From Apostichopus japonicus (Eukaryota > Echinodermata > Holothuroidea > Aspidochirotida > Stichopodidae): 64,000 bases of DNA. Shown one piece after another: positions 1,477 to 63,020 of the stretch (within the stretch, counting starts at the first letter, position 1; each line of letters opens with the position of its first letter). The position numbers were made by a program, and so were the translations under genes. The stretch lies in contig NC_092579.1 in the NCBI RefSeq assembly GCF_037975245.1, positions 2,781,001-2,845,000 on the forward strand, read 5' to 3'. The notes under the pieces are model-generated. The model searched no databases, was not told the DNA's origin, and saw only the letters and a program-made list of their open reading frames with translations.

Positions 1477-1600
1477 CATTTTGAGTTCCTCGCTGAGTTC
1501 GTCATCGAGTTCATTCTTGACGTATTTCTCCAGGGTCAGGATAGCAATCTCTAACACCTTCTCGTGATGAATATTCTCTAAATCTCTTACCTGCGATATC
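1477..1600 (-). CDS. DRC3 exon 10, last recognised exon
   Basis: The intron before it ends TTCTAC, 15 bases after the branch signal TTCCTTAA. Splicing at this AC gives [19 protein letters not shown], collinear with SLMAQCRDLENHHHEKLLEI. A standard AG just downstream (1591) would drop ISQ and break the frame. The donor is GTGAGC, phase 0, after EELKM. Confidence 0.88.
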
Positions 1601-4600
1601 GTAGAACATTTTGCATTAAGGAATTTTATTTTATTTTTTTATCTAGGTCTTGGTAAGTTATTGGATAGGATAGGAGTATTGGATTAGCACCCACAGAGGT
1701 CCTTAGGCATAATTTGCTCTCCCTCCCCAGGCCTCCCTCTACATTAAGTTTATGCATGCACAAACAGAAAGATATAGCGTTGGCACGCAATTACCTGGAA
1801 GTTTTCCCAGGCCCCTTCACCTTAAGGGGACCTGGTTATTTGCCAAGTCTTCCTGTTTTATGATCCCGCAAAGGGTAGGAGGTACAGATAGGAGGACAAG
1901 GAATGGCAAACTAATTACCATCATAATAACTTGGAGTCAAATCTTGCATGATCAAGATTTTTTTCTACATTGGATGCTACAAGGTGTTGATCAGAAGTAG
2001 TAGATTCTGCTCGCCATTCCTTCATCGGATCCTGTAAAACCTACACCGCTTGTTTAATATTTGTTTGCAAACTGTCTATGTAATGTGATTTCAATGTTTT
2101 ACTCTTATCAAACAATCTTTAGGTCTCCCAAGTTAGAAGCAGACATACAACTATGCTCACAATAAATAACCTTGTACCTGGGGATATTCATTATAACGGG
2201 TAGAGAAACTTTCGTCTTCAAGGCAAATAATATCAGTACTAGTAAAAGTTCTTGATACCCTGCTTCAAGCCATTTAGCAGTTCATACTCTATAAACTCAT
2301 GCAGATATTGACCGGCAAAATAGTAAAAGTGCAAAGTATCTACCCAAAAACATAGTTATATGCACCCAGAGAACAATCAAACTTCAGTAATTTGCCAGCT
2401 TATAGGCCATCAGCATACCCCCCCCCCCCCCCCCAAATATGCAACTAATAATAATTGCAATTCATGCTCAAAGACTTAGTTTACTAGCCAAGGGCACAAT
2501 ATATATTTACTAAAATTTCTCAAAGGGGCGAGTGCACCCCTCCTCTCAACAACATATCATCTTAGCCCCCCTTACCCAGTACAAGAATGGTGGTTGCACC
2601 CCTGCTACTGACACATTCAAAGCACTCTCCTTCTCTGAGAGATGTGATGGTCTAATGTGATAATTCCTATAACCCTCTAATTCAATGGCAACTGCTATAT
2701 TATACTGGCAAACATTGCAAGAACAAACAGAAAGATACATTCATATATACAGCATTCTAATGTACATTCACAGAATAGTAAAAATGAAGAATCAAAGCCA
2801 GAGAGAATCTGCAACCTAGTTTCAAAAAAGGATATAGTCCTTGGACAAACTCGACAAAATTTGAGACCATATCAGCCAGACTTCTCTCAAAATCTTTAAT
2901 GGTGTCCTATGAGGAAAAAAGAAGATGGTTTTCATGTTGTTTATATTTTCAGATACAGAATTATCTTTGAGATATAGTCAGAGAGGAGCATACATGCACA
3001 CAAATGATGAAAGATGATATATATAAAGAAAAATAGATGAAACGTTCTTTAATTTCATTATAATCATAAACGTAATCAAATTCTAAAACTGCAGGTCCCT
3101 TTATCAGTGAGAGTTTTAGCTATTATTTAGTCCAAACTTTCAACATAATTTGCTTATTAAATATGATATAATATAAACAAAAAGTTACAACATGTGGCCC
3201 GAAATTAAGAGTAGGCCTACAATAACTCAAATCAAAGATATGAGAGTGATTCAATTTGCTAGCATGAAAAGATAATATTTGCTAATGAAAAACTTTTTCC
3301 GCTTGGTTAAAGTTGAGCAATTAAAGGAAAGTACAATATTATCAACATCTATTATTGGTTCCAAAGTTTTGAAATTTGAACTGTTAAGTTCATGCTGTGT
3401 TGCAGATGATTATTGCTAATTTTAAAAGCTATTTAGATTGAGAAGAAACAGCTGCATCAACAACAACAATTATTATTACAACAACAACCCAAATCAACAT
3501 AAAATAGCTCAGATGATTCAGACAATTGACCAACTAAGCCAACACTTTCACTAAAAATCAATGAAAGGAAGGAAGGAAGGAAAAAAAACACCATCTTAAA
3601 ACAAACTTTTCATCTACAACAAAAAATCCTGTGTGGGCATTAAAATGATAATCTGCCTCTGAAGATCCTGCCAGGATTAAAATATCCCAGCCTTTTACTT
3701 ATTTGTACTTTTTCATATTTATTTATAACTCATGCCAGTGTTCATATCCTCTGAGTAAGATATGAAATATTAACTTTGCTATTGAATTTGTAATTCATAA
3801 TTGACAACATTGACTACTGTTTGAGATGAGTGTTATCCCTGACCACACACTGTGGATCTCACCTCCAGTTGGTCGACAAGTTGCAGTTCGTAGCCCATCA
3901 ACGTATCCCACAGTTTACTGATATCGTCATCGTACTCTGCCAGCTTGGAGTCTAATACTTTAGCATCACTGATCACAGTCAGGTCTGACAGACACTATAA
4001 GAAAAAAACAATAAATAAAAACTTGTAACGATGTTATGTTTTAACGTCCATATATAACGATGGTTAATCGTATCTTATGGATGTAATACAAGGTATGTTT
4101 TTAATATAAATTAAGCACACTTTGTAACAGAGAACAAGAAGCATCTAATATCCTGACAAGAACACCGTGTACCTGCTCAGAAGACTCAAATGATGAAGTG
4201 AGCAGTTTTTCTGACATTGTACCTCTATTGATTAATGTGTTAGACAATGCTAAGTATAATATTCTTTACATGTAGAATACCTTTAAAGGAGACGCTAACC
4301 CAACCATCAACTTTAGCTTCTACGACAGAGATCTTTGTGAAGAACAATTTCCCCAAAGCCGCTAAGCAAGAGATATCATAGTTTAAAAGTTGTGTTTGGG
4401 AGCTAGCATTTTGTAAATCTTTGATCCTATAGTACCACTAGGATCTGAAACGTTTTACTTGATTTTTCGTATCCATACTTCCATCGTAAAATGTTAAGTG
4501 TTTTTACTCAAACCAACGACATCGTAAGGTCATGATAAGAGCTTCAGACTTTAGATTCAGCATTTGCAAAACTCATCTCCCAACAAAAAAATAAGCATTG

Positions 4601-5275
4601 TAATTAATAAAGCAAACAAATGGAAAATGAATCACATGTGTCTCGATGATGTCATGTTTAGACTTGATCAAGTCTTCAGTCTTTTGTGTGAAGGATCACC
4701 AACTGGAATAAGATATTTCATAGCTGTTTAGGCGAGTTGTTCATGACATTTACCCCTATCGTATGGGTGAATAATGGTGGTTGGATCTCTGTCTCCTTTA
4801 GTGACCAGACGGCCAGGATTAAGTCTGCAACTATCTAAAAAATGTAACTAATTAAAACTGGTACCACTAGAAAGATCGCAACACTTCCAAGGAAAGCTTT
4901 ATCATCAAATCAAGTGACAAATTCTTGCATAAAGTGAAAATCAACGAAACTATAGTTTAATAGTTTTGATTAATAGTTACTCTTTTAAGATATTGGTAAC
5001 TAAATGACATTGCAGCAGATATTACCTTCTTTCTGTACTTGTTAAAGTCTTCAATCTTACTGGTCCCCATCTCCTTATTTTCAGTCTTGGCTTCCTCGAT
5101 GCATGAATAAAACTCATTGACCTCTTTCTGCCTCTTCTCGTGCTCCTGTAATCCAAAGTTGAACACCTGTCGACAGATCCCAACCATCTTCTCTTTGTAT
5201 GTGTGCATGAGTCAAGGATTAGGTTGATGTATATATACAAATATATATATATAAACGTATATGTATGTATATATA

Positions 5276-5323
<48 letters not shown>

Positions 5324-8300
5324 CTATAATATGTAACAAACCCGTATCGTTCTTGACATGAACAATTTTCCTATTGAAATCTTTATGAAAATTTTAAATG
5401 ATAGACAACTTAATGAGTAGTTAATAAAATCATACTAATTTATGTTTGTTAATTAATAATAATAATACCATGATTTTTCACCCATAACAGCCTAAAACAG
5501 TTCATTTTTAAAAACCACTGATGAGCCTCAGTGATAGCTATTGTAAATTGAGAATTATGATGTTACAACCCACTAAAGTGCAAGGACTATTTCACTTCTC
5601 AAAAGTTTGGAATGCAAAAAAAACAATTCATTAAATTATTAAACAATGCTGATTTCAAATTTTAATGCTAGAGGTATATCGATGCTCATTTTACTTGCAG
5701 TTTTTTTATGATGAGATTCTTGTCAACATGCAACATGTAAAGCAAGCAATGTCTCTGGTTTATGTACATTCAGTTTTGATACTTCAGATTGACATCAGAG
5801 CAGACACACATTCATACATCATGCAAAGACTTAACATTCCACAAATACATAAATTTATATCTCACTGATCAAAAGTGGACACTGATTCTAAACTCTTTGC
5901 TTAAAATAGTATAGAATGAGAGATTTAACATGTGGAAACCAGTTGGCAAAAACTAATCATGAATGATAAACTATCGACTCTTGCATGCATGAAGAGAAGG
6001 TTTTTCTTGAATCTATTTTATCCAGCTATGAAAGGATATACAAGAAGCAGTTCATCGACTCCAGGTAAAGAGGCCAGCTTCTGGGCCTCTGGATCATCAG
6101 AGAAAAGGCTTTCAAAGAGATGAGGTCCATTGAGATTCTCAACATAGGCTGCCTGGAAATTAAGAAAGTGAAAAGAGTTGTCTGAGTTTATGTCATTGTA
6201 CAACACAAGCTGCTCTAGTTTTGGTCAGAAGAACATATACATATAGATAAGAAGGGACATCTTGAATGACCCAAAAAACTTTTAGTTTTCTTCTGGAACA
6301 ATGTTTCCATGAAAAGTTTGTTTTCATATCGTGCCTGCATTATTTCTAAAGCATTTTATGTCTTTTACTTTTCAGTAAAACAAAAATAAACTCTTAGGCC
6401 TTATAATACAGTGTCTGGAAAAATCAACTGTATCGCAGATTTTTTTTTTAAACGCAATCAGCCAATAATACATAAGCAAACTATGTAGAAATTTCAAACC
6501 TGCTAAAATATTTTCTTCAAAAGATAATTTTTTTTTTTCAAGTGAAAATTGATACATTACAAAGAACTGATATATTGGACAATTCACTTACTTTCTGTTT
6601 GTTGAATTCAGTTTCTCCAGCCTCCCGTTCCAGTCTTTTGTTTTCAGCACTTGATTCATCTGCTACGAGTTCCTCTATGGCATATCTGTACTGCTCCTTA
6701 GCTGCCATTTTCTGAAAAAGTTAACCAATTTAACTCTCTGTTAAGTTTATAGTCCATCTTCTTGTTTCAAAATTTCTTGAATTCATTTCGTGAAAGTCGT
6801 AGAATACTACAGGGAGAGACGCTGAATATACCAAATATTACCCCAAATAAGATTTCTTTCTAGCATTTTACCAAAAAGTTTGGAGTGGGCATAGACTGGA
6901 CAGCAATCGATTTTATACTGATGTTTTATTGGGTTGCCACGTTTCTTTGGTCGAAAAGTGGGACTCTGCTCCCCTTCCTCCCCTACAAAGACAATTTTGG
7001 ACTTTAAGGAGGGCTTCATGGCGTTTCCTGCCAAGCTTGTGAGGCTAAAATGTGGCCATCAATCACATCATATTTGTGAGTTGGAAACAATTGCATCATG
7101 CATCCGAAACGGCCACGTTTAGTGATGCATGTAACTTGCACTTTATTTAGCTTTTGTATCACAAAACCAGTCATATTTTTGAATGTCACAAAGAACTTTA
7201 GAAAATCAGGACAATTTAAGTTGCGGGTGGAATGGCATCAGGTTATTGCAAAATCTGACAATACTGATTAAAGTTGTGCCGTCACAGGCACTACTTGCAC
7301 CACTGAACATTGTTCTGGTTTCTGCCTACCTCCCCCCTCCCCGCCCCACCCACTCAGATAATAAAAGGTTCCATTCCATTCTAGACTTTCATCATCCATT
7401 CACTTAATTAACAAGAGCATAGATCTGCAAAAGGCAATCTAAAATTTACAGTTCTTTTTTAAATCATTTATTTTGAAATAAACTTCATAAACGAGTGGAC
7501 ATAAAAATAAATTGATTAAAAATGCATTTACTCACTGTATTCTCGTCAATTAACCTGAAATCCAAGTAGACCAGAGACGCGACATGGGCAACGACAAACA
7601 CTTTGTAGTTAGGATCTTCACAGAAAGGATTGCCAGATAAATTGATTGTCTGAAGATTCTTAAACTTCCTTAAATAAATTAACTGTGGAGGATCAAAGAA
7701 ATAAAAATATTTTATCTTCTTTGATTGAAACTTTCCAGAAAAGGCAGATAGATAGATGAACGGAAAAATGGACCGACGGACGGATGGACAACAGTTAGCG
7801 AGAGAGATAGATAGATCATAGCACTTACATTTTCTAATGATGACAGGCTATTGTTGCCTATGGATAGAACATGAAGTCTGGTGAGTGTGTCCATGTTTTC
7901 AACGACGGAGATTCGGTTGTTGTATAGGGTCAGGTCTTCCAGCTTGGTAAGATTTTCCAAGTTTTCAATAACTTCAATATTATTAAAGGAAAGATCTGGA
8001 AAAGAAAAGCCAAAGCTAATTTTCAGGTTTAATTATATACTCTCCTAAAATTCCTCCTTGAGTTTGAATTCATATTCATGCATTATTTGTGACTTATTTT
8101 ACAATTAAGTTACAAAACACCTGCAAATAGTATCAAAAGTTAAAGGTGGTGCTCATCTCCACGATCACATAGTACAGTCGGACTGCTATCACATACAAAG
8201 TCAAACCAGATTATTTAATTAAGATTTTACAAACAGAATGTGGTTCCTGTCTTGAACATATCTTGACCATCTTCACAGAGTATATGGGGAGGTTTGGACT

Positions 8301-9679
8301 ATCTGGTTTACTGGCATGGACCCAATGCACCTCTGGGCTAGAGGTGCTGACAATGACACCAAGTTGATGTACCAAAGGCACCGATTTCCTCTGAGCCATG
8401 AGAGATGATAATTTTGTCTGAGGTGCCCAATTTGCCCTAGTGCCGCCTGTTGGATCACTGAACCAGTAGCAATTCAGGCCCCAGTCCGCCCCTGCACAGC
8501 ACAGTGAGGTTGTGTTTTACATACCAAGCCAAACCAGATTCACCAGACTGTCCAGGCCCTCTATTTTTTCTATGATGTTATTATCCATCTGAAGCTTGGT
8601 CAGGCTTGTAAATTCCCAAAGATTGTCAACTTTCAATATGTCTGTAGAAGAGAATGGAATGGTGATCAGGAGCAAATTGAGACCACAGGTCTCAGAATGA
8701 CGCTTAACAATGAATGCTGTAGTCACAGACTAAATCCCTTTTTATTTAAAGTGAAATTATATTAATACTTACGATGAACTGCCATACATAGTATTAAATG
8801 ATATCATTGTCCAAGGTTGCTTAGTTTAATACAAATAAAATTCATACCTCACAATATTCAAATGATAATTCCATGACAAATAACATAAATGTTACTTTAA
8901 ATCTAAGTGACCAGCAAGGAGAGGTTCTAGCTCAAACAGTAGGGTGTGGGTCCTCTCACACCCACCATGATGTTATCATAGATACAACCATTGGTAGTTA
9001 TACTACTGTACATTCGAGGTTTCAAGGAACAAACTGTAGAAGCAGAAACTGGCTTGAATGTAAAGACCTTAGCAGATGATGATCAACTAGCAGCATCTAA
9101 GTGTTACATACTGTATGTAAACATAAATAAAATGAGAAGACACCTGACTTTTGTATGCTGCTTGTCTTTGTTCAACTTGTGCTTTCAAGGTCTCTCTTTT
9201 AATCATAATAACATATCTACAGTAGTACAACACTAGATAATTATGCTAGATACAAAGAGTATGTGGATCGCTGAGTATATATTATTGATACACTACAATC
9301 CGCATGTACAAGATGAAGAATGGCAGCATTTGGAATATTCCAAAGCCCAAACATAAATTACTTCGATTAGATCCAATAATTCAAATTTACAAAAACTGCA
9401 TTCAATGCAGATGCTATGCTGAGAAATTTTTACAAATTCCCTTACCTCTTCAGGCAATATTGCTCTTTGAGTTAAGGAAATTAGCATTCAAATAAGCTAA
9501 TAATCTTCTCTCAACTTACTTTTGAAATCTAATCTGAGAGCCCCTATGTCTGCAAACTCTGTCTCTTCCTCCTTGGCTATCCGTCCTGCCTCTTCTTTTG
9601 GACCTTGTTCATCTATTGCTTTCAGGAGCATTTCTTCATCAATAACTGATGGTGCTACTGTATCATATAAACGACTCAT
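1477..9679 (-). CDS. Dynein regulatory complex subunit 3 (LRRC48), 10 exons, C terminus missing
   Basis: DRC3 is a subunit of the nexin-dynein regulatory complex of motile cilia and flagella, where it helps control dynein arms. The minus-strand exons, in transcript order, are 9679-9520, 8641-8525, 7995-7829, 7682-7536, 6711-6592, 6152-6040, 5200-5026, 3994-3863, 2906-2836 and 1600-1477. They join in frame to 442 codons. The start [10 protein letters not shown] is almost the vertebrate DRC3 start. Residues about 54-197 form SDS22-like leucine-rich repeats and a cap; residues 198-442 are a charged coiled-coil region. Family members are about 520 residues, so roughly 80 C-terminal residues are missing here. 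Introns 6 and 9 have AT-AC ends. The gene is divergent from TOM1. I identified the family from memory of the sequence, with high confidence. Confidence 0.93.
2836..2906 (-). CDS. DRC3 exon 9, with a second U12 AT-AC donor
   Basis: Acceptor CTCATAG. It encodes [20 protein letters not shown], like ETINMFERNIVDMV in the family. It ends at 2836, directly before ATATCCTTTT, a second U12 AT-AC donor. It leaves two bases (CT) of a Leu codon. Confidence 0.88.
3863..3994 (-). CDS. DRC3 exon 8
   Basis: Acceptor TTATAG, donor GTGAGA, 132 bp, phase 0. It encodes [18 protein letters not shown] and [17 protein letters not shown], matching the ISELFDALMTLEMQLVEQLE region of the family. Confidence 0.92.
4287..4797. 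mobile_element. Inverted-repeat MITE with TTAA-like flanks, in a DRC3 intron
   Basis: The left end AGGAGACGCTAACCCAACCA follows TTAA at 4283-4286. The right end, read in reverse, is AGGAGACAGAGATCCAACCA and is followed by TTAG at 4798-4801. There is no ORF. The imperfect terminal repeats and TTAA-type target suggest a non-autonomous piggyBac- or Kolobok-like element. The copy is degraded. Confidence 0.6.
5026..5200 (-). CDS. DRC3 exon 7, with an AC acceptor
   Basis: No AG acceptor fits the 5' edge. The intron ends in CACAC just before the exon, 11 bases after a U12-like branch site TCCTTGAC (5218-5211). Joining GT from exon 6 to A gives Val, then [18 protein letters not shown], matching YKDKFVIIC. 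The donor is an ordinary GTAATA. Confidence 0.88.
5221..5327. repeat. TA-rich microsatellite
   Basis: Mainly (TA)n with GTATG and AAACG interruptions, inside DRC3 U12 intron 6 just upstream of its branch site. Apparent ORFs through it are low-complexity artefacts. Confidence 0.9.
6040..6152 (-). CDS. DRC3 exon 6, with a U12 AT-AC donor
   Basis: Acceptor TTCCAG. It encodes [17 protein letters not shown] then LPGVDELLL, aligning to FVEHLNGSFLFDSM and LPGVGELL. The exon must end at 6040, because the next bases on the minus strand are ATATCCTTT, the U12 AT-AC donor consensus. Two bases (GT) of the next codon remain. Confidence 0.9.
6592..6711 (-). CDS. DRC3 exon 5 (start of coiled coil)
   Basis: Acceptor TTTCAG, donor GTAAGT, 120 bp, phase 0. 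It encodes a Glu/Lys-rich helix with [12 protein letters not shown] and [14 protein letters not shown], equivalent to the AEAKHQYSIDEL region of vertebrate DRC3. Confidence 0.9.
7536..7682 (-). CDS. DRC3 exon 4 (last repeat and LRR cap)
   Basis: Acceptor CCACAG, donor GTGAGT. It reads [20 protein letters not shown] then [20 protein letters not shown], matching the LRR cap of the family in which the chain ends LxYLDxRxID. Phase 0 on both sides. Confidence 0.93.
7829..7995 (-). CDS. DRC3 exon 3 (leucine-rich repeats)
   Basis: Acceptor TTCCAG, donor GTAAGT. It encodes [16 protein letters not shown] and two further repeats ending at SLSSLEN. The exon ends in phase 0. Confidence 0.93.
8525..8641 (-). 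CDS. DRC3 exon 2 (first leucine-rich repeats)
   Basis: Bounded by a CTACAG acceptor and a GTATGT donor. It encodes [11 protein letters not shown] and the repeat [12 protein letters not shown]-like stretch (here [14 protein letters not shown]), ending at NLVWL with a split Asp codon completed by exon 3. Confidence 0.93.
9520..9679 (-). CDS. DRC3 exon 1 (coding start)
   Basis: The ATG at 9679-9677 opens [16 protein letters not shown], followed by [10 protein letters not shown], both hallmarks of the DRC3 N terminus. The exon ends before GTAAGT with one base of a split Asn codon. Any 5' UTR exon lies upstream and was not resolved. Confidence 0.93.
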
Positions 9680-19900: not shown

Positions 19901-22900
19901 AGAGAGGATCATTGGGGGGGCAGGGGGAACTGCAGGAATGTCACCAGTTCTACAGCTAAGGCAGATCTGAATGCATACTTTTATAGGAGACAGGTGGGTA
20001 TCATTAAGGGTACATGTACTGCCAATTCCTTACGCATGCTATACCACAATGACTTGCGCATGCCATATGTACCTCAATTTATTATGTTCTACCACAATCC
20101 CTGATGTGTGCCAAACTTAAGTCTCTTATGCATGTCAGACCGCAATCCATTATGTGTGCCATACTTCTGTTGTGTTTGTCACATCTCAGTTTGTTCAGGT
20201 GTATCAAACACAAAATCCTTAAATTCCTCTATTTAACCTTCATAGGAAAAAATTCTAGCTATGATACAAACTTGGGCTGATGCCTTCAAACGACAGCCGG
20301 ACCTACACGGGGTTGTTAAAGTCTACGATGAGTTGAAGCAGAAAGGCATTGAATTCCCAGCCACAGACTTGGATACTTTCTCTCCCATTATCACCCCTAT
20401 TAGAGTAAGTATAGAATACCTATGTTACCATCTTATAAATATTAACCTACAATGACTGAGTATTATACACATGTTTTACTGGTGATTCTTCTCACAAGCG
20501 AATGTAAGGAGTTTTTTCTAACCAGTAGTGTCTGATTGATGACTAGTCCACGTCACTCGTACCAAATACAGCCAGCATTATCCAATCTACAATTAGGCTT
20601 AGGCTTGATCAAACAAACACTCTTTCTCTCTGAGGATCGCTACTTACGAAATCAGTACTAAGCCTAGTAATCAGCTGTTGTATTCAATCCCTGTAGCTTT
20701 GTCGGGAAGACATGTTGGTGAGATATTATTAGCATGCAAACCCTAAGGAACAAAGATCCCAAGATAATTACAATTTACTGATTTCATTCACATGAAACTT
20801 GCAAGCGTTTAACAAAGTTGACATTACCTGTACACTATGGTACAGAACAATTTGTCAGATAAAATATGGATTGCCGTCTAGCTATTAGGTCAAGTATCTT
20901 TTTGCGATTGTCTTTAATTTTTACATGAAAGATGTTTTAATACTTGAAGAGTATTTGGTTACTTTTCAGCATCAATATTATTTGTGATTATGATACTTAT
21001 ATATTTATTTTTAGAGTACACCTGACATTGATCCTGGTATGAATAGGCCGCCTCCATCATACAACCAATCACAGGTAGGTCTTCATAAATTTATGTCCGC
21101 CACTTACCAATTATGTCTGTTTGATATCAGAAGCATTCAGGTTTTTTTTTAAATTTTAGTTTATGAAAACATTTCTCTTTCTGAAAGTTATCAAGTGGCA
21201 AAATGTTTTGCACTTTAAATAATGTCTAGGTTAATTTTCCCCCTTTTCTATATTGTAATGTTCTTATCCTCTTCTTGCAAATGGAAGACCGAATCTCAAT
21301 ACATGGGCAAGCAAGCATCATTGATTTCATTTTGGCCGATTAAGGAGCTAACAGCCCAAACACTACTAGGGCCCTAAAGCTTCTTTCTAGGAGCATCAGG
21401 GTACCAGACCCCCTTGTGATGGTGACTCTTGGTAAGTACTGTAGATATAACTCTCACAGTGGTGTTATTTCTGATATTTTGACATTTTTCTGATATTATT
21501 TTCCAGTCCCCAGTTCCTCCCCCTGCTGTCCAGAGCAGTCCACCGCCTCCTGTTCCTGCTTCTGCTCCCGCCCCCACCCAAGGAGGTACACAGCAACACA
21601 TTGCCAAACTGAAGAGGGACCTCGACATGGTTAACACAAACGTTAAAGTGATGTCTGAGATGCTTACAGAATTAGTTCCTGGCCAGGAGAGCCCGGACGA
21701 CTACCAACTTTTAACGGTGAGAGCATTACATTGTAATGCTTGGTTGTGATTGGGAGGGGTGAGTGGTGGGGGAAGGGGTTGGGAATAGGAATTTTCCTTT
21801 AATTTTTTTACATTTCCATCACTCCTGGCTAATCTGGTCTCTACTTAATGTATGACCTCCCAATCCAACTCGCCTACAAAAGATTTGTTGCATGCAAACT
21901 GTAAAGCACTCCACCCTACCTCTAACGAGTTCAGTAACTATCCTTTTAGATCAGTAAGTTAGCTCTCTAATCAGAATGGTTTTTGTCTCTTCCAGTCATT
22001 CATTAAGTTGAGAAATGGTTGGAAACTTTCGAATAAAATTATTGTACCAATATTAGGTGTAAAAGAAAGGTTAAGTACCCCTCAATGTTACTAACTCTCA
22101 GTATCACTTTTATCAGTTTGCTACAACTCAAAATTCAAGTTTGAAGGAAAACTGTCCTTTCACTGAACTGGCTATAAAATTATATGAATATGTTTGAAAC
22201 AATGGGCTTGTCAATTACGTAGACATTGTCAATAGCCTTTGAGAGAGGGAGGAACTAGATCTATTTTGACCAGGAAGTTACTCATTATGTCATAGGTGTA
22301 AAAGAAATATAAACAGTGGATGCTGGATGTTTATTAATGTTCATAACAGGCTGTAGAACGGGGAAGTAAAAAAAAAATTAGGAAGTGAATGGCAACAGTT
22401 ATAGCAAGATACTTAAATGATTTTGTTGTTATGAAAGTGACAATGATTTGCATTTTTAAGAACCTAATTAGTAACTCCTAAAAGTTTACACCATGTCAGG
22501 GTAATAGTGCATTGCTCTCACTGTCTTGGTATACATCCATGCTCTCACCATACTTAAAGGTTTTCAGATGTTGTTTAAGATGTCATTTGTAGCTAAGTTT
22601 AATCAAAACATACTGCATAATATTTAAACTGCTCTGAATTCCTAATATTAAAGAACCTCAGGAATTTACTTTGACTCGAAAAGACTTGACCTTAATCTAT
22701 TACAATTGTCCTTATCAGTGGTTGTTATTACAACAAGTACATTTAGTGACAGATATTGTCCAAATATATTGCCCAAATACTGTAGTTCAAAGTCTGGAAA
22801 CCATGTAAGCTTGCAAACTCAATTATTTCTACGATAAATGGCTTTTCTGTGTCGCTAACTGTCATAGGATTTGACCTTTCCTCTTTTAAGTGGCTGAGAG

Positions 22901-25900
22901 GGTTTTCCCCTTTCACTAATGACTGTTATATCTGTCTTCAACATTCAGAAGGGTGATTACCTTTGCAGTGATCAAGTTATCTGGTATGGTGTTCTGGGTA
23001 CTTGACTTCAGGACACATTTTCCTCAGTTGCTCTATCAGCACTATTCAATATACAGTATCCCAGTATCCATCATATTACAACATACAATGAACCACCGCT
23101 TCTCATAACATGACTAATAATACAGGATTCATATCCTGTATTATTATATCCTGTATGATATCCTGTACACACATATCCACTCTACAGAGGTCAGACATAT
23201 ATTGCAATATAGCAAAGATAGAATCGTAAAAGTTAAATTATATAAATGTTCCCTCCTGTTTCCCTGTATAGGAACTGAACCAAACATGCCGTACCATGCA
23301 GCAGAGAGTAATGGAACTCCTAGGTCAGGTGACTCATGAAGAAATAATGGGTGAGGATGCATTGCTCTTGGTTGGGTTTCTTTCAAAAGTTGAAAGAAAA
23401 AATAGTTTGAATCATTTCATTCTCAATCTTTGATTTATAGTTTTCTGTTTCACAGATTGGATTATTTTCTGTCTTTGTTACATATTATTTTCTACTTGAT
23501 AAAACATTACGGTCCATTTTATTTGCATATCTCAGGAAGAGACACTGTTTGTTTAATACCAAATGATAGTATATGGACAAATGCCCCATTGTGTTTGGCT
23601 GACAGAATCCATTGTTAATTGTGTATTTACTTCACTCATCACTTCCCTGTCTCCTCGCTACAACTACCCCCCCCCCCTAGCTTTGCGGTGTGTAGAGCAC
23701 TTGCTTACCTTTAAATAGTAACCTTCTCACTTTTGACGGTTCCGTGTCAGTTGCTGTCCCTATGATTCCAATAATGCCATAGAAGGGTTATCATACACAT
23801 ACATAGAGATGAAAACATGTTTGTTTTCTGAATGCTATATCCGCAGGTGAACTCCTCAGGATTAATGATGATCTTAACAATCTATTCGTTCGATACGATC
23901 GACATGAGAGGTACCGCCAAACTCACTCTGGTTCCACACCAGTATCACCATCACAGCCTCCAGTGTCAGCCATACAACAGCCAGTCGTGGCTTCACAACC
24001 TCCGGTAAGTGACACCTACTGGTTCCCGTAATCAAAATAATGACGAAACATTTTTCCACTTGCGTTTATGTTTAAACAAAATTAACCGCAGTATGAATTT
24101 CAGGTAAAACATTTCTTGGAAGAATATTTGCACTACACCAACCAATCTTTGTGTAACCATTTTTTTGTTTCTAAGTTAAGAAAACTGAAAACATTTAGTA
24201 ACTTTTTTGATGTGTTTATGGGATGTCTTTGACCCTAGTAGCCATTTGACATGTTACTATCTACATGATATCTTCCTGGTCACCACTGAAAGGGGAAGTA
24301 TTTATTCACACCTCTTTTGGTTCTTCTTACTTGTGTTTAGCCTCCAGCAGCAGCGCCACCTCCTTCTGCTGCCGAGACTCTCATAGACTTTGGAGAACCA
24401 GCGACCCCATCCCAGCCACCTCCACCCTTGACGCAGCAGTTAGCAGGTCTAGGTAGGTCCTATCAGATGTCAGTCAAATGAAACATCATCCAATCACCGT
24501 TGACCAGTCTTATGTTTCCAAAATTGAGCTAAGAATGGCAGACTGTGAAAGAAAACAATACTTCTGTAAGAAATGAGGAGTTTGTGCATAGAATGTGATA
24601 GTTTTAGACATCTATGTGTGGTAAGTTGCAACTAGGTACCGCAATTTACACCAGTTAAAGTTGACTCCAATAGGAGCATTAGTGAGTATGCTGCAGAATG
24701 TAATGCATTTGTATAACATAGATATTATGTCATTTGACGTGTCACGTGTGTGCCACATATCTTTCTAAAGGGTCAAAGGTCATTTGGAGTCAGCATAGGG
24801 CAAAATGTAAAAATTTCAAAAAAGCTGAATTTCTCCAGAAAACCTCCAGAACCTGAACATCAAAGGAGCTCATATACGCATGGTAGTCAAGCCTTATTTA
24901 GTGTAAAGTGTTACATAATTTGTTGTAGGTCAGAGTCCATTAAAGGTAACAAGGGATCAAAACTTGAAATACTTGTAAACATGATATCTCCAGATAGGAA
25001 AATTGTTTGACTCTCATATTTGGCTCATGCCTTCCCTCAGTATGAGTATAAGAACTGTATTGTTTTGTTTGGTGGAGGTCAAGGGAAATTTGGGGTAATC
25101 AAAGGTCACACTGTTTTAAACCCTTATCAAAACAAACCTTGTAAACTTGATATCCCAAGATATATAGATAGATGATACTGCCCTCCATTTGAGTATTAAC
25201 TTCAGCCAAGGTGATTAGCTCGCAAACTACTCTGGTGGTGTATGGGTTTGTCTCTTGTTCATTGTGGCTTTTTAATATATTTATGAACTTATTTATCTTC
25301 TACATGACAGATATAAATTCATCAAATGCAAGCAGCCAGCTAAATCAAATTCCAATGGCGTCAGGTGACCAACCACAGCCACCATCCAATGATGACTTTG
25401 ATATGTTTGCTCAGAGCAGGCAGACTAGCTACCAAACCAGAGGGTAAGTTAGATCAGTGATTGTAGTAGCTCATATACCTCTCTCCATCTCGGTTAAATG
25501 GTGACTTTAGGCACAAAATAATATGTTTACTCTGAGTAGGGAGACCAGCTACCAAACCAGAGGGTAAGTTAGATCAGTGATTCTAGCAGCTCATATACCT
25601 CTCTCCATCTCGGTTAAATGGTGACTTTAGGCACAAAATAATATGTTTACTCTGAGTAGGGAGACTAGCTACCAAACCAGAGGGTAAGTTAGATCAGTGA
25701 TTGTAGCAGCTCATATACCTCTCTCCATCTCGGTTAAATGGTGACTTTAGGCACAAAATAATATGTTTACTCTGAGTAGGGAGACTAGCTACCAAACCAG
25801 AGGGTAAGTTAGATCAGTGATTGTAGCAGCTCATATACCTCTCTCCATCTCGGTTAAACGGTGATTTTAGGCTCAAAATAATATGTTTACTCAGAGCAGG

Positions 25901-44430: not shown

Positions 44431-44792
44431 TCTCAACTTGGTCGATATCCCAAATTAATCTATCAAAACAAACAAAAAACAATACCTTTCTTATTTATGC
44501 ACTAGTTGAACACATAGTCGACCGCAGGGTCAGTATAACACACACGACCGCAGTGACAGTGTGTCATGTCTTACTGTCCTTTTTTCTCTTAGCGGCTGCT
44601 GTTAGTGTCTGCTGTTAGTGGCTGCTACCTTCAATCAGGCGCTTCTCGGTGGATCGGAAGCATTACATCAGTAGGCTAGTGACCAAGTCAAAAGCGGAGG
44701 TAAAAAGCTACAACTTCCCGGTGATTGAAGTACTGTAAAGTTACTGTGTTTTAAGTATTCATTCTTGTGATATTTTCCAACTCAAGAAAATC

Positions 44793-44915
44793 ATGTTCAC
44801 AGCTGCGAGGTTTGTCCGTCAAGTGACGTCCAGGTTATCTGCACCAGGTATCAATATCCGTTGTATGTCAGCCGTCCCCCAGCCACAAACCAATCCTGAT
44901 GTCCATTGCAATAAG
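44793..44915 (+). CDS. ALDH exon 1 (mitochondrial presequence)
   Basis: It encodes [18 protein letters not shown] through NPDVHCNK. The donor is GTAATT and the exon is 123 bp, phase 0. The start lies only about 150 bases from the repeat nest, so promoter elements may lie in or next to the repeats. Confidence 0.9.
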
Positions 44916-47900
44916 GTAATTCCGTTTAGTGCTACCTTATCATATAAGAATTAAGATGCCTAAGTTAAAAAATAGTCAAGAAAGTAGTATGATAGTAGAC
45001 TAAGTCAGGTATTGTAGGTCCAACTAAACTAGCAAGGCCTAGCCTTTGTTCTTTAACTAAAGCCAGCAAGACCTACTTAATTGAAAATATTTCTTAGCAC
45101 ATTTGCAACAGCACAATAGCAATAGAAAGGAAAACAGAAGTCAAATAAATTAAACACAAAGAACTAGCAAACCTGTTACATTTGGGCCAGCAATAGCGTC
45201 AACATGCTATTTTGAATTTGAGTGTGTATGCCTATCCTGTAACTTAAGATTGTAGCCTCTTAGGGTTACATCTTTATGTTCTGACGTCTCTATGTGCCGA
45301 CGTCTCTATGTTCCGACGTCTCTTTGTTCCGACGTCTCTATGTTCCGACGTCTCTATGTTCCGACGTCTCTATGTTCCGACGTCTCTATGTTCCGACGTC
45401 TCTATGTTCCGACGTCTCTATGTTCCGACGTCTCTATGTTCCGACGTCTCTATGTTCCGACGTCTCTATTTTGGGGGAGAAAATGGGCAAAGAAATTTTT
45501 TTAAAAATTATTATAGTTTTGATGCTATATTCACGTCACACCGATCAAAATTGTCAATGGGTTGATCCCAGGTGACCTTTGTGTTGTAAGTTGTACAAGG
45601 TCAAAGTTAATTTTCAGACATTTAGTGCAATAACTCCCAGTGCCAAGGTGTGACAAGGTTGATATTTGCTGACAAGTTGCAAATGGTTTAGGGGAATATT
45701 TTCAAATGCATCGGTCATGTGATCCGAGGTCACCAAAGGTCAATTAATGATAAAAAACTAGTATTTTTGCGATAACTTGAGAACGAATTGTCCATTAGGG
45801 TTGGAAGTTGCTTCAATGTAATCCAATTGTTGACCCGCATCTGGGTGACCTTTGACCTCAATTTGACCTTTGGTGACCTTACGTGTTTTGGGGATTTTTA
45901 CAGTTTCGATGCTATTTTCAGATGTCAAAGGTACCTTTTGATCATAAATGTCAATTGGTTGACCCCTGTGTGACCTTTGTGTGAAGTTATACGAGGTCAA
46001 TGTTAATTTTCAGACATTTAATACAATAACTCCCAGTTCCAAGGTGTGACATGGTTGATATTTTTGGACAAGTTGCAAATGGTATAGGGATATATTTTCA
46101 AACTTAACAGTCATGTGATCCGAGTTCACCAAAGGTCAATTAATATTAAAATACTAGTATTAGTGAATAGAGTGGTGGAACATTTTTAAACTTAATGGTC
46201 ATGTCATCTGTGGTCACCAATGTTATCATATCTGTTGACTCCCTTGTAGGTGACCTTATATTTCTTACATTTTCGATGCCATATTCAGATCTCAAAAGTG
46301 CATTTTGATCAAAAATCAGATCACAATTTATGATCACAAAAGTGTTGTTGTAGTGTTGGTTACTTTATGGGTACATGTAGGACCACAATTACTTGACTAC
46401 AGTATTTGAGCCCAATTTTGCTTGATAATAATATGTGTATTGTCATATACTGTACTGTACCCCTACGCAAGGAACCACAGTGCCCTTGGGCTCTTTTTTA
46501 AATAACAGCTCGCCTTTCATTCATTTTTCTATTCTTTTATTTGTGCACATGTGTGTATGACTGGTATGAATAGAAAATATCCCCAATAATTATATGTCTA
46601 GATCTATACTATATATACCGCTGTTTTTGATTTGATCATCGTTGGTGTTATATACTTTTAACTCTTTAGAGGCCGGTCAATAGATGCATAAATTTCAGTT
46701 TTGACCTTTAAGATACTCTGAGTTCAGTTTCCGTATCCCTTATATTTGTTTGTTTGATTGTTTATTTGATTTTTGACATATTAATAAATATATGTGGAGG
46801 GAAGTCCAATACAGGCTTAACAAAGTAAAGGACTCCCAAGAAAAAAAGTATATACATAAATGAAAATATAATTAATGTCTTAATAAGGAATAATTAATAA
46901 CATGCAATATTTATAACCGATGTATCAATACTGAAAAATAACTTCCTTTTTTTAGCGTTTTTCTAAATGTTACTTTAGATTGTTTAGAGTTTATAGCAGC
47001 AGTTAGAGAACGCCATGTCCTTATAGCACGATTCTTTAAACTTAACATACCAAATGTTGTATTACATAAGTTGTGGTGTGCTTGACCGGCATTTCTAGTG
47101 CAGTGACTATGTATGGCGCTGTTAACAGTAAAGAAGTCATGAAAGGCTGCAGGAAGTAAGCCATTCCAAGCCTTGTAAGAGAATGTGGCTTCATTCAGCA
47201 TAATAATATCACTAAATTTTAAAAAGTTGAGCAATTTGAAATGTTTATTTTATTATTATTAATATTATTATTTATATGTCATATATTATACATTATTATA
47301 TTAAAAATATAATTATTTATCTTTTGATAGCTTTTCATCAACAATGAATGGGTGGATGCTGCAAGTGGGAAAACATTTGCGACAGTGAATCCAAGTACTG
47401 AAGAAGTTATCACAGAGGTCGCTGAGGCTGACAAGGTTAGAATTAACAAATTAAATAATGAGGATAATAGATTTCCATCAAATAATTAATAATTATGACA
47501 GTTATTATTTTGTGATGACATTTCTCAGTCTTACGTGTATTCTATTCAAGGGCGGCAGAAGCACTTTTAATCTGGGGGGCACCGACGTCGAAGGGCACTT
47601 TGCAGAAATTTGATTGGACTGATGCAGCCTTATATTTACTGTAGTACCCTTTATAACTCTTATTGTATTATCTTATTTGCGGATACACATCACTCCATCA
47701 ACACCCCCCCCCCCCAAAGAAAATATGTATACTAGCACTGTAATATCCAATGCGCAAATTGGGAAACAAGGAACAAGTTTTCTTTTGAGACAGAATGAGG
47801 TGAAATCATGCTAGTTGCTAAATGTAGGAATCTTCCGAATTAGAGTTTTTTTTTCTTGTTAATATCTTAACAAATTTTTTTCCATTCGAAATAGCTTTGA

Positions 47901-58116: not shown

Positions 58117-58811
58117 CTCATTCTACCGCGCCTAGAATGTCCTGGTAACCTTTTAACACTGTGCACCCTCTGTGACCCGGCTTCACGGGTCACTGCCCAT
58201 CCTTCTCATTCTACCAACCAAAGCGTCTACATCGTTATTTTCGAGCGGATATTATTCCATCGATTTCTGTCCAATTTTGGTTCCTAGAATCGGAATTTTT
58301 TTCCACCTACTGTTTGCTGAAGCATTCTAACCGTTGCAGCCCGATAAGTATCCTTTTCCTATTCTTGGGAGGTTTTTTAGGGCTGGTTTTTGTTAGCGGC
58401 GCTCGCGCCGTTTTTTTCTGTGCAGAAAACTTGCGTGGGTAGCAGTTCTGCGATTTGTTTACCGTAGTTACGCTAGTTCCCGCCTTTTTAGGCTACACAC
58501 GCTATCACGCCTTTCCCTCACCCACTGTTTAGTTGTTCAATTTTGTTGTTCACTTTAATTCTCCTGCCTTCATTATTCGTTTTTTTCGTTAATTCGTTGT
58601 CTTCTCTCCTCCCTGCCCTTGCTAGTTAGTTAGACTTTTGTGGGTCGGCTTAGGCCTAATTGTTACCATTGTAAGCCGCGGGCCTCTAGCCGAGGCACGG
58701 TGTTAAGCCTAGTGTGTTTTCCCACAGATCTTATTGCTTCTCTCCCCCTTTTTAGCTTCCCTCTCCTATCGTTTTGTTAGATTCTTCTTCCTTAACCGGG
58801 GTTTTTCAGTC
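58117..58811 (+). other. DIRS 5' leader
   Basis: No stable ORF from an ATG. The sequence is T-rich (TTTTTTCGTTAATTCG and similar). It lies between the left terminus and the first gag-like ATG and may hold the element's promoter. Confidence 0.5.
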
Positions 58812-59720
58812 ATGTCCAGAAGCCAGTTGAAGTGCGTTAACTGCTCTAGGTTCCGGCCAGGGAGGGCCTGGGATGAGCACGATCTCTGTCCCAAGTGCCG
58901 TACGTGCACGAGGAGGGACCCCTGCCTAGTGTGTATCAACTTCACCCCCAACCAATGGCTAGACATTGATACCTGGCTAGCAGGCCAGAGAAGCAAACTT
59001 CAGGATAAACTCGACCTGCTCCCCAACCCCAGTGGGTCCCGAACAACGGGAGACCGAGCACAGTTAGGAGAGGAAGAAGAAGGAGAGGTGTTGGAGAGGG
59101 GCCCAGTAGGGGCCGAGGAAGAAGGAGAGAAAGGGAAAGAGAGAGAAAGAGAAGGAGAGAGAGAAAGAGAAAGAGAGAAAGAGAGAGAGAAAATGCCTCC
59201 CACGGTCCCGGCGACGTCCGGATCAGTCATGACCAAGGGGAAAGGCAAAGACAAGGGCAAGGCTCCGGCCAAGAGAAAAGTGCCCAAGAAAAAGTCCGGC
59301 CTCGCCGGCACCGAGAAGGCTTCCCAATCTGGGTCGCAGAGAAATAACCCGCCGGAGAGGCAGGTGCCACGGGCACCGACAAGCCCAACTCGAGCTCCTT
59401 CCGGGGCGCACAGCAGAGAGCCAGAGGCCGGAGGATCGCTGTCCAACCAGAGCCGGTCCCGGAGCGGGGCCGAGAACCACAGCCATCACGATCCCCAGCT
59501 GGGATCCCCGACCGAGAGAGCAGAGGAAGGAATCCCTCACGCAACCCGGCCAGACGGGACCGCACCCGATCACGGTCCCGATCCCCCAGACGAGGTACCA
59601 GGAGGGGATGGTCGCCAGCATCAGACCAGTCTTCCGACTCCTCCGATGATGGATACCGTAGGGCTAAGAGGAGGTATCGACCACACAAACAGCGTCACGA
59701 GGAAGAGCCCTCGTGGCTAG
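58812..59720 (+). CDS. DIRS ORF1 (gag-like), N-terminal part with Cys motifs
   Basis: The ATG at 58812 is preferred over the non-ATG start further upstream, because the protein then opens MSRSQLKCVNCSRFRPGR. Cys pairs CVNC, CPKC, CTRRDPC and CVNC-like CLVC suggest zinc binding near the N terminus. A run of Glu/Arg/Lys (EREREG) is coded by a GAGA-rich stretch at 59105-59190, followed by a Lys/Pro-rich region. After about residue 180 this frame probably leaves the original one, since the better continuation is in another frame from 59348 on. Its function would be nucleic acid packaging, by analogy. Confidence 0.7.
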   Translation: MSRSQLKCVNCSRFRPGRAWDEHDLCPKCRTCTRRDPCLVCINFTPNQWLDIDTWLAGQRSKLQDKLDLLPNPSGSRTTGDRAQLGEEEEGEVLERGPVGAEEEGEKGKEREREGEREREREKEREKMPPTVPATSGSVMTKGKGKDKGKAPAKRKVPKKKSGLAGTEKASQSGSQRNNPPERQVPRAPTSPTRAPSGAHSREPEAGGSLSNQSRSRSGAENHSHHDPQLGSPTERAEEGIPHATRPDGTAPDHGPDPPDEVPGGDGRQHQTSLPTPPMMDTVGLRGGIDHTNSVTRKSPRG

Positions 59721-60988
59721 CCCAATTGACAGGTCTCCTAAAGCCGCTCCTCGAGAGAGAACAACAGAGAGCCGAGGCAGAAACAGAAGCCGGGAGCCAA
59801 AAAGCGGCTACAACGACCACTACGGTCCCGGAACCCCCCCTGGAACCGGAGGCAGTCACCCTCGGAGAGGACACTCTGGACTGCAGAGCCTCCGTAAATC
59901 TATCGGGTCTGGAGGACAACTCTGACGTCCCCCCGGAGTTCGACCCTTTGGAAGAGGAGTTCCCAGGCATCTTCGAGGAAGAGGAAGCTCCCACGGCGGG
60001 AGGCAGTTTACCCCCGGAACTAACCACGCGGGTGGCAGAAATCTTCCGCAAACACCTTGGGTTCGAAGACACTCCCGAAGTGACAACTAAACCGACCCAA
60101 GTTTCCAAACTCACAGCCACAGGGGAGACCTCTACCCGTCCGAAATCTACCATTCCAGTCGACGCCTCCTGTTATGACAGGTTCGAGGCTATCGCGGATA
60201 AAAAGAGATGGACCGCGTTCCCGGCAAAAGCAGAACCAGACGAAGCATGGAAAACCCTTTTCAAATGCCCGACCATACCGCAGGAGGCTAGAGAAAAGCT
60301 AAGGTCCGAGCAGGGCTCTTCCTCCTCACACATCTTCAAAAATCCTAGCCAGAAGAAGCTAGAGCAGCTCCTAGTTGATGTCGACCTGGCCGCACGCTCC
60401 GGAATGAAGTTTACTTCTGTTCTCATGCTGACCGCGGAGGTGCTGATGAGATATCACCAACAACTTCCACAGGACGATACCTACGTGTCCAGAAACGAGG
60501 CAGGCCAACTTTTACTACTCCTCGGACCGCTTGTGAGACTGGCCTTCGACCAGTTTGCTAGAGTCGCTATACGTTCAGTCAAGGCCAGGAGGGAAAACGT
60601 CATCTCCTCCATCCGCTGGCCATCCGTGGAAGCTAAGGAGAGAATGCTAGCCCTGCCCTCCTTGGGAGACGACCTCTTCGCTGGTAGCTTCCAACAAAAA
60701 CTCCAGGAGGAAGTCTCACGCAGAGAGACATTAGCCAAATCGGAATTCCGCTCCTCTGAGAGATTCAGGTCAAGACCGCACCGCCTAAGAGAATCTAGAC
60801 CAACCAGAGGAGGCAGAGGAACGTCCCTCAGGACACCCATGAGAGGTACCCCACGGGGCAGATCAAGAGGAACAACTAGCCGACCACCTCGCCCGTGGGG
60901 AACACGAGGCTCAGGCAGAAGCCCGACGACGACCCGACGGGACGGCGACCGCTCCTCCACTAGACCACCGTTTGCCGCCCGGCCCTAG
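59348..60988 (+). CDS. DIRS ORF1 (gag-like), C-terminal part in a shifted frame
   Basis: This frame is open from 59348, after a TAA, to TAG at 60986-60988. It has no suitable early ATG. It encodes an Arg/Ser-rich stretch (RRDRTRSRSRSPRRGTRRGW), an acidic stretch, and FPAKAEPDEAWKTLFKCP with helical sequence typical of DIRS ORF1 C-terminal halves, ending Arg/Gly-rich. It appears to be the continuation of the 58812 ORF after a -1 shift or single-base indel between 59348 and 59720. Its end overlaps the RT frame. Confidence 0.65.
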   Translation, partial: PAGEAGATGTDKPNSSSFRGAQQRARGRRIAVQPEPVPERGREPQPSRSPAGIPDRESRGRNPSRNPARRDRTRSRSRSPRRGTRRGWSPASDQSSDSSDDGYRRAKRRYRPHKQRHEEEPSWLAQLTGLLKPLLEREQQRAEAETEAGSQKAATTTTTVPEPPLEPEAVTLGEDTLDCRASVNLSGLEDNSDVPPEFDPLEEEFPGIFEEEEAPTAGGSLPPELTTRVAEIFRKHLGFEDTPEVTTKPTQVSKLTATGETSTRPKSTIPVDASCYDRFEAIADKKRWTAFPAKAEPDEAWKTLFKCPTIPQEAREKLRSEQGSSSSHIFKNPSQKKLEQLLVDVDLAARSGMKFTSVLMLTAEVLMRYHQQLPQDDTYVSRNEAGQLLLLLGPLVRLAFDQFARVAIRSVKARRENVISSIRWPSVEAKERMLALPSLGDDLFAGSFQQKLQEEVSRRETLAKSEFRSSERFRSRPHRLRESRPTRGGRGTSLRTPMRGTPRGRSRGTTSRPPRPWGTRGSGRSPTTTRRDGDRSSTRPPFAARP

Positions 60989-63020
60989 GGGTGCCCACCT
61001 CACCACGGCAACGCCGCAGGTGGGGGGGAGACTGTCACTTTTCACCCAGCAATGGGACATTTTGGGCGGGGACAAGTGGGTATTGGAGACGATCTCACAA
61101 GGGTACAAGATAGAGTTCACCTCCGCCCCGCCCTCCGGGGAGGGGGGAAGACCTACTCCAATACCCACCGACCCCGTCCAACAAGCAGCACTAGAAGGGG
61201 AAGTATCAGCCTTGCTGGCGAAGCGGGCAATTGTAGAGGTGTCGGGAGAGGCGGGACCCCTCTTCCGCTCCTCCCTGTTTCTAACACAAAAACGGGACGG
61301 GTCTTGGCGCCCGATCTTGAACCTAAAACCCCTCAACAAAAATTACGTAGAACCAAAACGTTTCCGTATGGAGACCCTAAATTTAATCCTACCCCTGCTC
61401 AGAAAGGGCATGTGGGCGGCAAGCGTAGACCTACAGGACGCCTACTTACATATACCAATACATCCACGTCACCAGCGGTACCTAGCCTTCCAATACGCCG
61501 GAAGGAGATTTACATTCAGGTCACTCCCGTTCGGCCTGTCTACGGCACCAAGAGTCTTCACAAGAGTGGCAGGAACGGTAATCGCCTACCTCAGGAAACA
61601 AGGAGTAACGCTGTACGCCTACCTCGACGACTGGCTCATAGTAGGAGAGACCCTTCAGGAACTGGGTTGGATAATCAATCAAACAAAATCCCAGCTAACA
61701 CCAACACAGACGATCCAGTTCCTGGGGGCCAGACTAGACCTCACCACAGGCATAGCCAGTCCCTCAGAACAAAGGATAGAGGCAGTCAGAGCGGCCACAG
61801 CCCAGATCATATCGTCACAAGAGTCACCCACAGGAACGTGGCTCCGAGCCCTGGGGCTAATGTCCAGCCTGGTCGACGTGGTGACATTATGCAGACTACG
61901 CATGCGTCCGCTGCAACTCCACCTGCGGAAAACGGCCAACCTACTAACCCTGGACCAGACAGCGCCGATCCGCCGATCGGAAGACATCACCCCCCATCTA
62001 CAATGGTGGCACGACACAGGCAATTGGGACCAAGGGGTCCCCTTCACCACCAGTTTGCCAAACACATCGGTCACGACGGACGCCTCATTGACAGGGTGGG
62101 GAGCCCACTGGAAGAACTTGACAGCCTGGGGGACGTGGTCCACAGCAGAAAAGTCATGGCACATCAACTCACTAGAGATGTTGGCTGTCAAACGGGCCCT
62201 AGAGTCGTTCCACGAACACCTGAAAAATACAGTAACCACCGTCTTCACGGACAGTACCACCGTGGTAGCGTACATAAACAGGCAGGGGGGCACTCACTCC
62301 GAGAGGTTATGCCAGCTGACCTGGGAAGTCCTGATGACAGCCAAGGACTCCGGAATGACATTACGGGCGTCCCACATCGCCGGAAAACTAAATGTGATGG
62401 CCGATGCTCTATCCAGAGGACAGATGGACCCAAACGAGTGGGCACTGTCCCAGAAAACATGCAACAGGATCTTCGAAATCTTCGGCAAACCAATGGTGGA
62501 CCTGTTTGCGACGGCGGAGAACACCAAACTCCAGATTTTTTGCTCCAGACAATTCCACCCCAGGGCGCACCACATCGACGCCATGTCCTTCCCATGGAAC
62601 AATCTGGAAGCTTACGCCTTCCCGCCGCTCTGCATGATCGGCCAGGTCCTGAGAAAGATCCGCCACTCCAGAGGAAGAGTCATACTGATAGCCCCCTTCT
62701 GGCCCCGCAGACCATGGTTCGGGGAGCTCCTACAACCTCTAATGGACACCCCAGCGATCCTACCGGACACGCCCCATCTGCTGTCCCAAAGACGGGGGAC
62801 CCTCATCCACCCAGACATCAAAGGGCTACAACTAGTTGCGTGGAAGTTGTCAGGACTTCCCTTCGACAGAGGGGCTTTTCGGAAGCGGCTGCCGCGATCG
62901 CGGCCGACGCCAGGAGGGCAACAACCGTTGCTACTTACGATTCCCGACTACGCAAGTTCGGGGAATGGTGCCACAACAGACAGGTACTGCCATCCGAAAC
63001 CTCTTTGGCACAGGTGGTAG
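60972..63020 (+). CDS. DIRS reverse transcriptase-RNase H (with C-terminal methyltransferase-like region)
   Basis: The start is uncertain: no ATG precedes the domain, and 60972 is a TTG, so entry may be by frameshift from ORF1. Numbering from 60972, the polymerase has DGSWRPILNLKPLN (109-122), SVDLQDAY (151-158) and YLDD (217-220, catalytic Asp pair). RNase H has D370 (TTDAS), E402, D426 (TDST) and D478 (ADALSR). Residues ~495-600 (VDLFATAENTKLQIF, YAFPP, LIAPFWP) are the region that follows RNase H in DIRS and resembles a degenerate Dam-type methyltransferase. After YLDD only 13 residues precede the conserved GW, where relatives have about 27, so a piece of the domain seems lost. Confidence 0.85.
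   Translation: MPPGPRGAHLTTATPQVGGRLSLFTQQWDILGGDKWVLETISQGYKIEFTSAPPSGEGGRPTPIPTDPVQQAALEGEVSALLAKRAIVEVSGEAGPLFRSSLFLTQKRDGSWRPILNLKPLNKNYVEPKRFRMETLNLILPLLRKGMWAASVDLQDAYLHIPIHPRHQRYLAFQYAGRRFTFRSLPFGLSTAPRVFTRVAGTVIAYLRKQGVTLYAYLDDWLIVGETLQELGWIINQTKSQLTPTQTIQFLGARLDLTTGIASPSEQRIEAVRAATAQIISSQESPTGTWLRALGLMSSLVDVVTLCRLRMRPLQLHLRKTANLLTLDQTAPIRRSEDITPHLQWWHDTGNWDQGVPFTTSLPNTSVTTDASLTGWGAHWKNLTAWGTWSTAEKSWHINSLEMLAVKRALESFHEHLKNTVTTVFTDSTTVVAYINRQGGTHSERLCQLTWEVLMTAKDSGMTLRASHIAGKLNVMADALSRGQMDPNEWALSQKTCNRIFEIFGKPMVDLFATAENTKLQIFCSRQFHPRAHHIDAMSFPWNNLEAYAFPPLCMIGQVLRKIRHSRGRVILIAPFWPRRPWFGELLQPLMDTPAILPDTPHLLSQRRGTLIHPDIKGLQLVAWKLSGLPFDRGAFRKRLPRSRPTPGGQQPLLLTIPDYASSGNGATTDRYCHPKPLWHRW

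Follow-up and report, generated by a model that had tools for sequence, protein, structure and literature searches.

We conclude, from sequence, that intron 9 of the DRC3 (LRRC48) gene is most probably a genuine AT-AC intron that would be removed by the minor (U12) spliceosome, and that intron 6 of the same gene would be removed in the same way; we put the probability of this reading at about 0.95. The gene lies on the minus strand of the window, the whole 64,000-nucleotide stretch of DNA that was analysed, which is part of contig C19 of a 671.6 Mb genome in 35 contigs. A preliminary description of this DNA had proposed that the gene was DRC3 and that intron 9 was its second AT-AC U12 intron. 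Both proposals fit the sequence tests reported here, and numbering by coding exons makes it intron 9.

Eleven coding exons were joined into a frame of 523 amino acids without inner stops (1,572 nt including the stop codon), starting at an ATG at 9679 on the minus strand. Coding exons 1–10 occupy positions 1477–9679 of the window (minus strand), as placed by the gene model, phmmer and a genome search, and exon 11 lies outside the window, in the adjoining genome flank sequence at window-relative −1691 to −1936 on the same strand. Exons 9 (2836–2906, minus strand) and 10 (1477–1600, minus strand; translation ending ...ELKM) were placed by the gene model and the phmmer alignment. The best three PDB matches of the model in a phmmer search were DRC3 chains (9fqr_Qv, E 4.4e-170; 8j07_3, E 4e-164; 8glv_Em, E 2.4e-83), which we take to be mammalian, human and Chlamydomonas, respectively. 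Residues 1–519 of the model aligned to residues 1–517 of 9fqr_Qv, a full-length similarity to DRC3 that covers both the LRR domain and the coiled-coil tail, and LRR_9, LRR_4 and LRR_8 were above the Pfam cut-off. When the genome was searched with DRC3, 11 of the 18 matches were the 11 exons at one locus; the remaining seven aligned to its LRR portion, at E 1.1e-7 or worse. This search, in which 82 of 118 candidates were scored, so that the single-locus count is a lower bound, revealed neither a second copy nor a retrocopy, the latter of which would have displayed the spliced sequence itself. These results support the assignment of the predicted gene to DRC3, with a single orthologous locus. 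Eight of its ten introns are GT-AG and two, introns 6 and 9, are AT-AC.

Intron 9 (1601–2835, minus strand) was defined by the gene model and an end-pair test; it is 1,235 nt long and in phase 2. Its donor, ATATCCTTTT, starts at 2835 and matches the U12 donor RTATCCTTT at nine of nine positions. The U12-type 5′ splice site as a whole, ATATCCTTTTTT (2824–2835, minus strand), rests on a 9/9 match to ATATCCTTT and on the snRNA duplexes given below. A U12-type branch site, TTCCTTAAT (1615–1623, minus strand), matches TTCCTTRAY at 9/9 positions. The branch adenosine is likely the one at 1616, which leaves 15 nt to the end of the intron; U12 branch sites are usually found 10–20 nt from the 3′ end. 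The intron terminates in AC (1601–1602, minus strand), and its 3′ end, TTCCTTAATGCAAAATGTTCTAC, shows no strong polypyrimidine tract and is A-rich above, as judged by eye. A donor at 2835, a branch near 1616–1623 and an AC at 1601 had been described previously, and these signals were recovered on the minus strand at 2835, 1623–1615 and 1601. The 23 terminal nucleotides at the 3′ end occur once in the genome at up to three mismatches (the reversed pattern, used as a control, occurs twice), and the possibility that this end is a piece of a repeat was set aside on that count.

Joining exons 9 and 10 at these positions gives the codons ...CAA-GGA-CT|G-ATA-TCG-CAG..., in frame and with no residue lost. 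The junction is gap-free against all three DRC3 chains (9fqr_Qv, 8j07_3 and 8glv_Em), in agreement with the in-frame, collinear join claimed at the outset. Around it the model reads ISQVRDLEN, as compared with MAQCRDLEN in 9fqr_Qv and 8j07_3 and FTQVRDLQN in 8glv_Em; the Q and the RDL are identical in all three chains. In the end-pair test, GT-AG, GC-AG and AT-AC ends were combined, the donors ranging from within exon 9 down to about 120 nt past its end and the acceptors lying no more than 90 nt from 1600. Among the 373 pairs tried, 67 were open in frame, and only the pairing of AT at 2835 with AC at 1601 was residue-neutral.

The other AT-AC intron, intron 6 (5201–6039, minus strand; 839 nt, phase 2), was identified by the gene model, motif matches and duplexes. 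Its donor, ATATCCTTTC, is a 9/9 match, its branch site, ATCCTTGAC (5219–5211, minus strand), matches TTCCTTRAY at eight of nine positions, and 11 nt separate the branch A from the intron end, which reads ATCCTTGACTCATGCACAC. The junction is gap-free against 9fqr_Qv and 8j07_3. In the end-pair test, 507 pairs were tried, 90 were in frame without a stop, and one GC-AG pair was also residue-neutral. That pair was rejected because its donor gave a U1 duplex of −1.5, weaker than that of any of the eight GT-AG introns.

In the window, these signals exceed what chance would give. On its minus strand, 63,991 nine-base windows contained two perfect matches to ATATCCTTT, one at the donor of intron 6 and one at that of intron 9, together with 15 matches at 8/9. 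Genome-wide (671.6 Mb), ATATCCTTTT was found 1,874 times on one strand and 1,790 times on the other, or about 0.17 times per 64 kb and strand; the reversed pattern, as a control, was found 1,434 and 1,429 times. Three of the 3,620 AC sites on the minus strand had a 9/9 branch match within the region scanned upstream of the site, and 38 had an 8/9 match. Branch matches of 8/9 also occur in GT-AG introns 3 and 5, equal to that of intron 6, so the branch match count alone does not separate the two classes.

Searches of the genome, in each of which 40 to 49 candidates were scored, gave one match above the Rfam threshold for each of U6atac (104.2 bits), U12 (115.9 bits), U4atac (72.2 bits) and U11 (88.7 bits). 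The genome's own U11, U12 and U6atac were then paired with all ten introns, together with the generally known U1 5′ end. Across the ten introns, U11, U12 and U6atac paired best with introns 6 and 9, and U1 paired worst with them. For introns 6 and 9, respectively, the U6atac duplexes were −6.0 and −6.6 kcal/mol (+3.1 to −3.4 in the eight GT-AG introns), the duplexes of U12 with the branch −6.2 and −7.4 kcal/mol (−0.2 to −4.7), and the U1 duplexes −1.9 and +1.3 kcal/mol (−5.6 to −9.7); these three separate the AT-AC from the GT-AG introns clearly. The U11 duplexes were −4.9 and −5.6 kcal/mol, as compared with +1.1 to −4.2 kcal/mol in the GT-AG introns, a small margin because intron 10 reaches −4.2 and intron 6 only −4.9.

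Syntaxin 6 served as a positive control: passages of PMC2831892 list one of its introns as AT-AC U12 for both fly and human, and as switched to GT-AG in fish. In a syntaxin-6-type gene of this genome, two exons matching STX6_10_61_N are split by a 581-nt intron, ATATCCTTTCTT...CTCCTTAACTTACGTCTTGTAC, with the layout ATATCCTTTC...CTCCTTAAC...TTGTAC and an in-frame exon join, DLEETIGIVEANPRKF. This predicted intron shows, in one gene, that a minor-class AT-AC intron is kept in the genome. A Band-7 search for prohibitin 2, intended as a second control, returned 12 mixed matches.

If intron 9 is removed by the minor spliceosome, U11 would read its ATATCCTTT donor and U12 would read TTCCTTAAT, with the branch adenosine bulged at about 1616. 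U6atac would then displace U11 from the donor, and the 3′ end would be the AC that follows the branch at 15 nt, joining the exons without loss of a residue. Splicing of intron 9 in the cell as modelled is inferred from these signals, as are the branch nucleotide and any consequence for how much DRC3 is made.

AT-AC ends alone do not prove that an intron is of the U12 class, because SCN4A intron 21 is AT-AC yet uses the major spliceosome; according to the relevant passages of PMC2831892, AT-AC introns of the major spliceosome exist and carry G at +5. That intron 9 has AT-AC ends and is nevertheless removed by the major spliceosome, like SCN4A intron 21, is extremely improbable: its donor has C at both +5 and +6, matches the U12 donor perfectly and forms a U1 duplex of +1.3. 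It is also very unlikely that intron 9 is a GT-AG intron of the major class, running from a donor at 2815 (TAG|GTTGCA) to an AG ending at 1584 or 1578. This option is in frame without a stop and changes the protein by only one residue, gained or lost; with the AG ending at 1584, DLEN is kept and one residue is added. Its U1 duplex of −4.0 is the best among the in-frame GT-AG options but is weaker than those of all eight GT-AG introns of DRC3 (−5.6 to −9.7). Furthermore, it would replace the Q and the R before DLEN, which are identical in the three DRC3 chains, and would give no account of the perfect U12 donor and branch.

The 3′ end of a U12 intron can also be AG, and there is a CAG 10 nt below the AC of intron 9. 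Pairing of the AT donor at 2835 with this AG at 1591, in which case GATATCGCAG would not be retained in cDNA, is nonetheless hardly credible, since it would place a TAA directly after VQGL and since the AG sits 25 nt from the likely branch A, as compared with 15 nt for the AC. The preliminary description had expected a loss of residues and a shift of frame from the nearby AG; with this donor the consequence goes further, the TAA being the second codon after the join. A further alternative accepts the AT-AC join as constitutive and has exon 10 sometimes cut at an inner site. A strong major-class donor-like sequence, CAG|GTAAGAG, lies in exon 10 (1584–1593, minus strand; GT from 1590), 10 nt after the AC of intron 9. 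Its U1 duplex of −11.0 compares with −8.1 at the modelled intron 10 donor, and duplexes of −11.0 or better occur at seven of the 3,541 GT sites on the minus strand. Use of this site would reduce exon 10 to a 10-nt microexon and delete 38 residues, leaving a short form that is in frame through exon 11. We consider the coexistence of both forms unlikely, since CAG|GTAAGAG is a site match only and its use would remove the conserved RDLEN segment; exons of 10 nt are poorly defined. Binding of U1 at the inner site might help the AT-AC intron through exon definition. Flanking U2-type introns enhance U12-dependent splicing, as summarized in part of a review (PMC3584512).

A second oddity was found in DRC3 intron 10. 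A genome search with a unit of about 66 bp, consisting of the exon 11 acceptor and the first ∼30 nt of that exon, matched 13 places, all of them here: the head of exon 11 and 12 tandem decoys (1027–513 in the window and window-relative −1400 to −1691 in the flank, minus strand). A scan for acceptors that required YAG recovered all 13, and reading on from the decoys meets an in-frame stop after seven codons in one and after 11 codons in eleven. The decoy array is split by almost 2 kb of sequence in which palindromic repeats of the TATTCGAATA type abound (about 510 to window-relative about −1410). This segment has a 31-nt inverted repeat (81%) at its ends and looks like a foldback or DNA-transposon-like insertion. 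One could imagine that DRC3 output is set at splicing by the 3′ half of the gene, with its two AT-AC introns, strong U1 site and 12 in-register decoys, and that DRC3 lacking RDLEN in frame, or truncated at its C terminus, could be made in amounts that depend on how active the minor spliceosome is relative to the major one in ciliated or sperm cells. We regard this scheme as improbable.

As predicted here, the AT-AC introns of DRC3 are a further example of a well-known class. The U12-type AT-AC introns of syntaxin 6, PHB2 and KCMF1, as described in passages of PMC2831892, have the same donor and branch, a similarly short distance from branch to acceptor, and AT-AC termini; what differs is the host gene, DRC3. 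The syntaxin-6-type gene of the present genome is laid out likewise. In the same passages of PMC2831892, most mammalian SCN and CACN1 channel genes have two U12-type introns per gene, as does DRC3 here, but DRC3 codes for a subunit of the dynein regulatory complex and its pair is AT-AC throughout. In human, 26% of the U12 introns are AT-AC (PMC7367187, Table 2), and portions of that survey report that each of the 21 U12-bearing genomes examined shows U12 introns clustering within the same genes. Novelty is therefore modest, as two U12 introns in one gene are a documented tendency. A literature search that covered main texts turned up no paper linking DRC3/LRRC48 with minor introns; such an intron may still be listed in supplementary tables, the usual place for gene lists of this kind. 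Echinoderms are not named in the main text of two U12 surveys (echinoderm, no occurrence in PMC7367187; sea urchin and Strongylocentrotus, none in PMC2831892).

The close tie between DRC3 expression and minor-spliceosome activity that had been suggested, together with a link to disease, is a hypothesis. Work cited in PMC7367187 holds that the excision rates of the two intron classes differ too little for a meaningful effect on expression. Ciliary genes are already on record among minor-intron genes: a ZCRB1 study reports primary-cilium and centrosome genes, and DRC, LRRC48 and dynein have no occurrence in its main text (PMC13216214). The present case contributes a structural gene of motile cilia in which two AT-AC introns are predicted with exact junctions. 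Should the introns be conserved in other animals, the activity of the minor spliceosome in motile cilia could be read out from DRC3, in a setting unlike that of the primary-cilium genes of the ZCRB1 study. By itself, the DRC3 case leaves the picture of the minor spliceosome unchanged.

Several other features were noted. Open frames resembling a TOM1/TOM1L-type (VHS-domain) gene by eye lie at 20246–25450 on the plus strand, head-to-head with DRC3, and one piece gave a VHS match at E 2.4e-5, below the Pfam cut-off. Human TOM1L2 and DRC3 are presumably also neighbours, and the pairing of a TOM1-like gene with DRC3 may be old. Pieces at 44755–47489 on the plus strand resemble, by eye, a mitochondrial aldehyde dehydrogenase, a tentative name; the two short pieces compared with Pfam had no match. 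Long open frames of a retroelement, DIRS-like by eye, occupy 58700–63910 on the plus strand, and one of them showed a weak phage-integrase SAM-like match in Pfam, below the cut-off.

Outside the window, mitochondrial cox1 was found on a 16,099-base contig (C35), followed by open frames that by eye resemble nad4L and cox2; ARAGORN under the bacterial code found no tRNAs at this locus. In the stretch of cox1 aligned to 8ugh_4A (cytochrome oxidase subunit 1, PDB), nine of nine AAA codons stand at Asn and four of five AGA codons at Ser. AAA as Asn and this mitochondrial gene order are echinoderm traits, and together they suggest that the genome is that of an echinoderm. Another contig (C29) carries, at about 14.7–31.2 kb, five more pieces of cox1 that are interrupted by TGA in frame; they could stem from a copy in the nucleus, from a mitochondrial contig that was rearranged or from contamination.
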